From contig NZ_VNHY01000001.1 of assembly GCF_008124865.1 (NCBI RefSeq), forward strand, positions 868,001 to 932,000: 64,000 nt of DNA. Direction: 5' to 3'. The translations under genes were made by a program, and so were the position numbers. The notes under the pieces were generated by a model. That model saw nothing but the letters and a program-made list of their open reading frames with translations. It searched no databases and was not told the DNA's origin. Shown piece after piece: positions 37,728 to 40,152 of the stretch. The stretch's first letter is position 1, and each line of letters opens with the position of its first letter. This DNA comes from Fodinibius salinus (GTDB lineage: Bacteria > Bacteroidota > Rhodothermia > Balneolales > Balneolaceae).

Positions 37728-38021
37728 ATGAATACCGCGGATCTGGTTAAAAAACTTGCCAATAACTGGGATATTACCCAACGACAAGCCCGAAAATATT
37801 TGGATATTATCATTCAAACTTTTAGCGATACGTTGGCAGCCGGAAATTCATTTACATTGCCCGGCGTGGGGACTTTTGAAACTACCACGCGCGATGAGCG
37901 TGAATCATATAATCCACACTATGAACAAAAGATGAAGCTGCCGCCCAAACGCGTAGTTCATTTTTCACCCAGTGCAGGATTAAAAGAAGATGTTAAACAA
38001 ATAGAACAAGACAATGAGTGA
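37728..38021 (+). CDS. HU-family DNA-binding protein
   Basis: The 97-residue protein covers a whole HU/IHF domain: an N-terminal helical pair (DLVKKLANNWDITQRQARKY), then TLPGVGTFETTTRDERESYNP and VVHFSPSAGLKEDV. HU proteins bend and compact DNA as dimers. Its stop overlaps the start of the HU-LysM gene by eight bases (38014-38021), so the two are translated together and may form heterodimers. A GGGTGTT/AACACCC inverted repeat at 37648-37709 may fold the leader. Confidence 0.88.
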   Translation: MNTADLVKKLANNWDITQRQARKYLDIIIQTFSDTLAAGNSFTLPGVGTFETTTRDERESYNPHYEQKMKLPPKRVVHFSPSAGLKEDVKQIEQDNE

Positions 38022-39759
38022 GAAAGTAACGTTTCAGGAACTCATTGAGTCAATTGCCGAAGAGACAGATAATACCGAGCAATTCACTCACGATTTCCTC
38101 AAAGATTTTGCGGAAGTTATTAACGGTGGGCTACAGCAAAATGATACCGTCAATATTGCCGGCTTTGGTAAATTTAAGCTGCGCAAGATGGAGGAGCGCG
38201 AGGGTTATAATCCTCAAACAGAAGAAAAAATTACCATTCCCCCTCATAATAAAGTGGTTTTTAAGCCCTATAAAGATCTTCGCGAATTGGTAAATGCACC
38301 TTATGCCCACTTGGAACCGGAACTTATCAAAGAAGAGGACTCTTCTGTCAAGGAAGAGGAAGACACTTCTTCACCCACGACTTCGGAGACTGACGAAGGC
38401 CCAGCAGAAAATATTGAGAGTGATCAAGATACAACAACGGAAGAAGAAAATGAGATAACGCCGCAAGTAACAGCCGAAGAATCAGCACCGCAAGATACTG
38501 CATCAGCTGATGATACCACTACTGATCAATCGGATGACACAGAAAAAAGCAAGGTCTCAAACGAGAAGACAGAACAGGAACAAGATCCATTTGACTTTGA
38601 TAATGATGATGCGGAAGCGCCAAATTCTTTACTCCAGGAAATTGCTGATGAAGATGATAATGAGGACCATGAAAGTACTGAAGATCTCACCGATGACTCT
38701 TCTGTAGATGACGATGATATTGTAGAATTTCAGGAAAGTCCTGCCCAAGAGGAAAGTAAAGATGAGAAAGAGGATGAAAACGTTGAAGAATTTGACGAAG
38801 ATGATGAAAAAGATGATGCTCCTGCTTGGCTAGATGCTATGGTGGGACCAGAAGCATCAGGGAAGATCCAACATTCTGATGAGGAAGACGATCAGAAGTC
38901 TAAAAAACAGGGTCAAGAACCTCAACATACTGATTCTAAAGAAGATAAAGAATCTGATGAGACCTATATGCCCGGGAATGAATCTTCTGAGGATAAAAAA
39001 GAAGGTGAGCAAATAGAGGAGAAACCAAAAACTGCTAACCCAAACATGGATCGAAATATGCGCAATCGTAACTCCGGGTCCTCTCTCGGTATTTGGATTG
39101 CAGCAGCGGTTATTCTGCTGATGCTGGCAGGCGGGGTTCTCTACTTTAGCTTGATGTCCGACACAAACCAACGTAGATCAAACACTCAGAAAGTTGCGTC
39201 CACCTCTACCGTACAAAAGAATGACGCTAGTCAACGGCAAGAACAGTCAGCTGACCAACAAAAAGAAACCAGATCAGAAAATAAGCAGCAGTCCACATCA
39301 CAGAAACAACCCCAAAAATCAGCACAGCAACCTACTGCCGAAAAATCCTCTGGGAATAAATCTTCTGCAGATAAGACTGCTACAAAGAATAAAAAAGTAA
39401 GTCACTCGATTAAAAAAGGACAAACCTTGTGGAGTATTGCCGAAGATAAGTATGGCAATCCGCGGCTTTGGCCCTGGATTTACGGCAAGAATGATACACT
39501 AACTAATCCACACGTAATCCAAACCGGGCGATTGTTGACCGTACCTCTGCCCTCTGGTAATCAAAATAGGTTGAGCCAGTCAGATTCTGTGGGTGTAGCA
39601 AAAGGATTCCTTTCAACTTATCAATGGTACAGAAATAACGAGCCATCGAAAGCTAAGAACCACCTTTGGGTGGCAATGCAGTACCATGAGAATATTCGGG
39701 ATTTAGCAACAACTAAAATAGACCAAGCCGATCTTTCTTACGCCAATAGATTCCGTTAA
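38014..39759 (+). CDS. HU-acidic linker-transmembrane-LysM fusion protein
   Basis: The 581-residue protein joins domains rarely seen together. Residues 1-95 are an HU/IHF DNA-binding domain (NIAGFGKFKLRKMEEREGYNP, then NKVVFKPYKDLRELV). Residues about 105-345 are extremely rich in Glu, Asp, Ser and Gln, a disordered acidic arm. One membrane helix follows at about 356-380 (LGIWIAAAVILLMLAGGVLYF). After another polar Gln/Lys/Ser stretch comes a LysM domain at about 461-515 (KGQTLWSIAEDKYGNPRLW) and a conserved-looking tail. Predicted topology puts HU in the cytoplasm and LysM on peptidoglycan, so it could tether DNA to the wall. It overlaps the upstream HU gene by eight bases. Confidence 0.88.
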   Translation: MSEKVTFQELIESIAEETDNTEQFTHDFLKDFAEVINGGLQQNDTVNIAGFGKFKLRKMEEREGYNPQTEEKITIPPHNKVVFKPYKDLRELVNAPYAHLEPELIKEEDSSVKEEEDTSSPTTSETDEGPAENIESDQDTTTEEENEITPQVTAEESAPQDTASADDTTTDQSDDTEKSKVSNEKTEQEQDPFDFDNDDAEAPNSLLQEIADEDDNEDHESTEDLTDDSSVDDDDIVEFQESPAQEESKDEKEDENVEEFDEDDEKDDAPAWLDAMVGPEASGKIQHSDEEDDQKSKKQGQEPQHTDSKEDKESDETYMPGNESSEDKKEGEQIEEKPKTANPNMDRNMRNRNSGSSLGIWIAAAVILLMLAGGVLYFSLMSDTNQRRSNTQKVASTSTVQKNDASQRQEQSADQQKETRSENKQQSTSQKQPQKSAQQPTAEKSSGNKSSADKTATKNKKVSHSIKKGQTLWSIAEDKYGNPRLWPWIYGKNDTLTNPHVIQTGRLLTVPLPSGNQNRLSQSDSVGVAKGFLSTYQWYRNNEPSKAKNHLWVAMQYHENIRDLATTKIDQADLSYANRFR

Positions 39760-39831: not shown

Positions 39832-40152
39832 ATGATTCGCCATGTAGTAATGTGGAAACTCAAAGATGAAGCCGAAGGAGCCTCAAAAGAAAAAAATGCG
39901 GAGAAGATGAAGCTGATTTTGGAGGGGCTTAAAACCAATATCGACGAAATTAAAAATGTGGAAGTCGGTATTAACATTTCCGAAGATGATGATGAAGCGG
40001 GTTCTCCACACGATGTAGTCCTTATTTCTGACTTCGAGACAGAATTAGACTATTCAATGTACACGCGTAATGAGCACCACAAAAAAGCAGTGAAATTTAT
40101 TAACTCTGTTATTGAAGAACGTCATTTTGTAGATTACAATGTTGACATGTAG
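39832..40152 (+). CDS. Dabb-family (stress-responsive A/B barrel) protein
   Basis: The 106-residue protein matches the dimeric alpha/beta barrel Dabb fold: it begins IRHVVMWKLKDEAEG, has VGINI in the middle, and ends with HKKAVKFINSVIEERHFVDY. Members range from stress proteins to polyketide cyclases; most bacterial ones have no known substrate. A strong ribosome-binding site AAAGGAG lies seven bases before the ATG. It is probably monocistronic. Confidence 0.88.
   Translation: MIRHVVMWKLKDEAEGASKEKNAEKMKLILEGLKTNIDEIKNVEVGINISEDDDEAGSPHDVVLISDFETELDYSMYTRNEHHKKAVKFINSVIEERHFVDYNVDM

Follow-up and report, generated by a model that had tools for sequence, protein, structure and literature searches.

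HubP/FimV of Vibrio cholerae and Pseudomonas, which acts in the positioning of cell poles and chromosomes, has a LysM domain outside the membrane, one membrane helix and a long acidic cytoplasmic part. Kbp/YgaU, which joins LysM to a BON domain, is soluble and has neither an HU domain nor a membrane helix. In HU alpha/beta and IHF alpha/beta, two related subunits carry the same domain. For Bacteroidota, we know of no settled account of how the envelope holds the nucleoid. Among the Bacteroidetes there are HU-SPOR proteins, whose domain set we take to be HU-CCDC81_bac_1/_bac_2-TM-SPOR (PF18174, PF18175 and PF05036). Burroughs and colleagues (Cell Cycle, 2017) are said to have put these proteins forward as candidates for a part in chromosome partition; the idea of a tether is therefore not wholly new. 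Among open-licence PMC papers, we found none on an HU-TM-LysM protein.

The window analyzed here is a stretch of 64,000 nucleotides from Fodinibius salinus (contig NZ_VNHY01000001.1, positions 868,001 to 932,000). It contains two overlapping genes, A and B, which share the plan of HU-CCDC81-SPOR: two HU domains, one helix and, outside the membrane, a domain of peptidoglycan-binding type (Table 1). The difference lies at the end of the protein, which is SPOR in the known type and LysM, with no SPOR, in B. Compared with HubP/FimV, B has the reversed order, LysM being N-terminal there, and HubP/FimV has neither an HU domain nor a partner HU gene. An earlier sequence-only reading of the window had described B as an HU domain, an acidic arm, one membrane helix and a LysM domain, in that order, and Pfam, profile searches and AlphaFold bear this out. 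The eight-base overlap of B with a small HU gene, also described there, is present as read (ATGAGTGA).

Table 1. Features of the A+B locus, in positions of the window, and the HU-SPOR module of the same genome
Feature	Position	Strand	Evidence or remarks
Gene A, small HU-family protein, dedicated partner subunit	37728..38021	+	PF00216 79.9 bits, 97 aa
Stop/start overlap of A and B, 8 bases	38014..38021	+	ORF coordinates
Gene B, HU-acidic arm-membrane helix-LysM protein	38014..39759	+	581 aa, ATG start
HU domain of B, residues 1-95, arm-tip Pro at residue 67	38014..38298	+	PF00216 90.0 bits
Disordered acidic arm, residues 104-355	38323..39078	+	pLDDT<50, net charge about -75
Single membrane helix, residues 358-382	39085..39159	+	hydropathy 2.52, helix in model
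Disordered, putatively periplasmic spacer, residues 389-456	39178..39381	+	pLDDT<50
LysM domain, residues 461-511	39394..39546	+	profile search, predicted fold, conserved residues
C-terminal helical extension, residues 522-581	39577..39756	+	high pLDDT, no family match
HU-SPOR module	L090 2006-4107 (same genome)		HU-like-acidic arm-membrane helix-SPOR, 632 aa

The two genes travel together. Across 35 sampled Balneolaceae genomes, the window's own included, the whole A+B locus is found in 24 and a fragment of it, at a contig end, in one more. The pair is absent from the other 10, among them 4 of the 12 genomes of the window's genus, and is therefore not essential in the clade. No genome in this sample carries one intact gene, A or B, alone, and the locus is missing from all 24 genomes examined in other families of the same order. 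Orthologues of A, at 114 to 152 bits, occur in exactly the 24 genomes that carry B; the best HU of any other genome scores 62 bits or less. The linkage to an HU gene that the sequence-only reading had pointed to is thus conserved in Balneolaceae, where A and B are either both present or both absent, and the pattern indicates that they are gained and lost together, the housekeeping HU being separate. A search with the A-type motif named Fodinibius/Aliifodinibius, Gracilimonas and Balneola as relatives. In one of the 24 loci (L016), B has a frame change between the membrane helix and LysM, which is either decay or a sequencing error.

The architecture is not confined to the family. When 296 genomes of the phylum were searched with a profile, it turned up in two genomes outside Balneolaceae, which we take as Bacteroidales from their gene content (rimO, moxR) and phylum. 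The gene order in both is rimO, small HU, HU-TM-LysM, moxR, with moxR either directly next or after a transposase-like gene. With a Bacteroidales B as query, 20 of 149 genomes of this presumed order gave a relative at E<=1e-10; with the family profile at E<=1e-26 the number was 24 of 149, a few of them matching only in the C-terminal part. A small HU gene lies directly upstream of B in all 20 Bacteroidales loci. Full-length orthologues, each with a partner HU gene, occur in many genera. The neighbors vary, being rimO and moxR in Bacteroidales, while Balneolaceae have a Dabb-like gene or other genes there; since they differ between the clades, it is the pair and not the neighborhood that is kept. 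In the window, the gene directly 3' of B (39832-40152), as at many Balneolaceae loci, encodes a 106-aa protein that looks like a Dabb stress-responsive barrel.

Two metagenome-assembled genomes, whose taxonomy is that of the record titles, hold further copies. One titled Deltaproteobacteria (L053, 3396-5040) has a complete A and HU-TM-LysM, near genes for an SPFH-type lipoprotein and a transglycosylase-like protein; here the pair reflects either transfer or a mislabeled bin. One titled Verrucomicrobia (L055, 3501-4741) has A and an HU-TM protein with a coiled-coil-like tail and no recognizable LysM.

The junction between the genes is tight. When the conserved ATG is taken as the start of B, the 24 Balneolaceae loci show overlaps of 8 bases (14 loci), 11 bases (2 loci) or 4 bases (6 loci), and a gap of 2 bases in the remaining 2. 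The overlap likely means translational coupling.

Descent was examined with a tree of 111 HU domains, which has only 103 columns, so that its inner forks are weak. All 46 B-type HUs fall in one clade (support 100/99), and this grouping gives good support to B having arisen once. The A-type HUs form a group with support of 95/92 when two long-branch HU-SPOR rows are included and 96/33 without them; as judged from the tree, the small A subunits are grouped less firmly than the membrane-anchored B subunits. Both types stand apart from housekeeping HUs. The partner had been called a plain HU, and this part of the sequence-only reading fails: A forms a type of its own and is a dedicated subunit. 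Its identity with the housekeeping HU is ruled out by the separate A-type group; the housekeeping HU is encoded elsewhere in the same genome. A+B is an old two-gene pair of common descent. It differs from the HU and IHF heterodimers in that B is membrane-anchored, fused to LysM and acidic, and in that both subunits are apart from housekeeping HU.

The HU domains themselves are clear. A and B both score well above the PF00216 cut-off of 22.4. In the AlphaFold model of B, built with 23 orthologues, residues 7-94 have a pLDDT of about 90, and the PDB entries closest to this domain are IHF and HU. In Balneolaceae, the HU arm is intact in A and B, as in HU and IHF. The arm-tip Pro is present in A in 23/24 Balneolaceae and 20/20 Bacteroidales, and in B in 24/24 Balneolaceae and only 2/20 Bacteroidales; P67 of B is invariant in family alignments A1/A3, and position 87 of B, a Lys, is K or R in all 24 Balneolaceae. 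The net charge is +2 for the HU domain of A in the window and -6 for that of B, as against +2 for L001, a further HU from this genome, and a mean of +4.9 for 17 ordinary HUs. Family means are -2.4 for the Balneolaceae B domain, +7.5 for Bacteroidales A and near neutral for Bacteroidales B.

Loss of DNA-binding residues in relatives, which the sequence-only reading had named as telling against it, is thus seen in one subunit and not in the other: Bacteroidales B has lost the arm-tip Pro in 18 of 20 cases and Bacteroidales A has kept it in every one. The net negative charge of the B domain makes it doubtful that B itself binds DNA strongly. Because A retained the arm-tip Pro that Bacteroidales B lost, soluble A is probably the main DNA-gripping half. 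Such an asymmetry agrees with a heterodimer whose A subunit would provide most of the grip on DNA and whose B subunit would serve as the anchor, and an A:B heterodimer is likely given the conserved linkage and co-occurrence of the two genes.

The same features bear on the strongest competing explanation, that these HU domains have turned into protein-protein modules which organize wall synthesis or division without DNA. A role of this kind has been proposed for CCDC81-type HUs, the arm is wholly missing from the HU of the SPOR paralogue, and the B domain is acidic or neutral, with its arm-tip Pro lost in Bacteroidales. Against this, both arm and Pro survive in 43 of the 44 copies of A from Balneolaceae and Bacteroidales, the Bacteroidales copies being basic, and B has kept arm, Pro and Lys at 87 in 24/24 Balneolaceae. 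We consider a DNA-free envelope scaffold unlikely.

Next to the HU domain of B lies the acidic arm, of about 250 residues, 38% of them Asp or Glu, and with a net charge of -75. Its length ranges from 32 to 251 residues across B relatives, and it is net negative in 36/36 of them at a sequence identity of only 21%. The helix that follows is the sole strongly hydrophobic stretch in B, and there is no N-terminal hydrophobic signal. Its internal position is that of a stable anchor; a cleavable signal peptide, which the sequence-only reading had named as telling against it, is ruled out, there being no N-terminal hydrophobic stretch and no other strong helix. Over 36 B proteins, Lys and Arg average 3.3 in the 15 residues before the helix versus 1.25 in the 15 after it, with the excess on the N side in 30 proteins, equal numbers in 3 and the opposite in 3. 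By the positive-inside rule this favors the N-in/C-out topology on which the sequence-only reading was conditional, and the charge bias together with the lack of an N-terminal signal makes it likely that HU is inside and LysM outside.

A cytoplasmic DNA-binding domain, one helix and a periplasmic domain are also the layout of membrane-bound transcription factors, and B could accordingly be read as a regulator. Its LysM would sense the state of the wall (fragments, stress) and the HU pair would alter transcription or local DNA structure, in the manner of a one-component transducer of the ToxR/CadC type with HU replacing the winged helix. Some species do without the pair, which would suit such a role. 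However, HU is as a rule not sequence-specific, a disordered leash of 32 to 251 residues transmits no conformational signal, and no obvious target operon is found, since the gene neighborhood is not conserved between clades. We rate the regulator, and with it the likeness to ToxR/CadC, as improbable, slightly more so than the scaffold.

The LysM domain of B is divergent by its scores. By itself, B gives a PF01476 score of 15.0 bits, below the Pfam cut-off of 20.9; of the LysM-type relatives scanned in the same way, two reach 16.6 and 17.4 and the others have no LysM match at E<=0.01. The domain is seen by the family profile and would be missed by a one-sequence search. In the PDB, the B family profile picks out LysM structures, namely Kbp (E=3.8e-10), TsaP (2e-6) and SafA (7e-4). 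Residues 461-511 are modeled as a beta-alpha-alpha-beta fold with a pLDDT of 93, and with helices 522-580 the range is 93-98. For the modeled C-terminal region, the best Foldseek matches are LysM entries with a probability of 1.00 and E values of only 0.009-0.1. Residues W486, P487, P499 and P511 are kept in the family alignments. With LysM below library cut-offs, automatic annotation can easily overlook the HU-TM-LysM architecture. The C-terminal tail has a pLDDT of 94-98 over most of its length and a mean pairwise identity of 32%; no family match was found for this conserved helical segment. In some family members, the tail after LysM is cut down to a TPR-like helix pair.

Kbp/YgaU holds the closest solved LysM to that of B, and its depositors describe Kbp as a potassium-binding protein. 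The LysM of B might therefore bind an ion or a protein partner in place of peptidoglycan; B would then be an HU anchored in the membrane and equipped with a periplasmic sensor of unrelated kind. Kbp constructs are also its best Foldseek matches, and its score under the Pfam cut-off points the same way. The likeness to Kbp is, however, that of the LysM fold itself, and most other matches, by profile and by Foldseek, are wall- or chitin-binding or phage tail proteins. Moreover, SPOR, the end of the sister module, is a peptidoglycan-binding domain and so points to peptidoglycan for LysM. A different ligand seems to us distinctly improbable.

Mean identity among B relatives is 50% for HU and 40% for LysM, as against 21% and 15% for the disordered linkers, which are of low complexity. 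By this comparison, HU and LysM are the conserved parts of B, and the linkers between them are predicted to be disordered and change fast. The low-complexity linkers and the frame-broken L016 locus might suggest an accidental fusion or an annotation artefact with no selected function, a reading to which we give almost no credence and which is refuted by the conservation of both end domains in about 25 Balneolaceae genomes and 20 Bacteroidales loci, by the single origin of B and by its constant pairing with A.

The genome of the window also encodes a HU-SPOR module, and it too is split in two: a 68-residue HU-like gene overlaps the HU-SPOR gene by 4 bases, and exbB, exbD and tonB-like genes follow. 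In Bacteroidales the equivalent is one protein, HU-HU-TM-SPOR (three were read by eye), so that the first HU is fused in the SPOR type of that clade, whereas for A+B both clades keep it as a gene of its own. The SPOR protein has an HU without an arm, and the HU arms of the module are degenerate; in contrast, A+B have HU arms. At a PF18175 cut-off of 35, A (22.2 bits) and B (13.9 bits) both fall below, and PF18174 gives no match; PF18175 matches over the cut-off occur in 15 of 19 LysM-module genomes searched. Of the 59 genomes sampled from the order, 56 have a relative of the HU-SPOR protein, those that lack the LysM pair included; such relatives are thus near universal there, whereas A+B is patchy. 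Four genomes of the window's genus without A and B retain such a relative. Taken by its domains, HU plus HU-LysM appears as a better DNA-equipped, new variant of the plan of HU, membrane helix and peptidoglycan-binding domain.

From the computed domain order, conservation, A/B pairing and common descent, we infer a topology, a heterodimer, DNA binding, wall binding and a role in the cell as follows. A and B would be co-translated and would pair as an HU heterodimer beneath the inner membrane. A, joined in Balneolaceae by the HU arm of B, would grip or bend DNA without sequence specificity. B would hold the heterodimer, by a long, flexible, negatively charged leash, to its one helix in the N-in/C-out orientation, and the roughly 250 residues of the leash would give the DNA reach and freedom. 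On the far side of the membrane, LysM would hold peptidoglycan. Nucleoid and cell wall would in this way be joined by a diffuse tether, through which chromosome position or segregation would be linked to the envelope, and which would operate alongside the second, SPOR-type HU tether. Since the pair is old and inherited together, tying the chromosome to the wall is its probable function; for the specific version, in which the heterodimer grips DNA mainly via A and is anchored to peptidoglycan by B, we see the chances as about balanced. The Verrucomicrobia-titled contig, with A and an HU-helix protein lacking a recognizable LysM, counts against this tether.

More broadly, A+B may be an ancient two-gene system in which the HU subunit that grips DNA would dock on the membrane-spanning HU-LysM subunit and bulk chromosomal DNA would be tied physically to peptidoglycan, in parallel with a HU-SPOR tether that would mark the septal wall. 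This idea is tentative, with chances somewhat short of even, and so is its scope of Balneolaceae, Bacteroidales and the contigs labeled Deltaproteobacteria and Verrucomicrobia. If this is true, nucleoid and wall would be linked directly, and in a testable way, by a dedicated protein reaching from an HU heterodimer to the wall. The presence of LysM and SPOR modules in one genome would allow a clean double-deletion test of how important such tethers are, and the genomes of the window's genus that lack the LysM pair and have HU-SPOR would offer a natural set in which to judge what the pair contributes.
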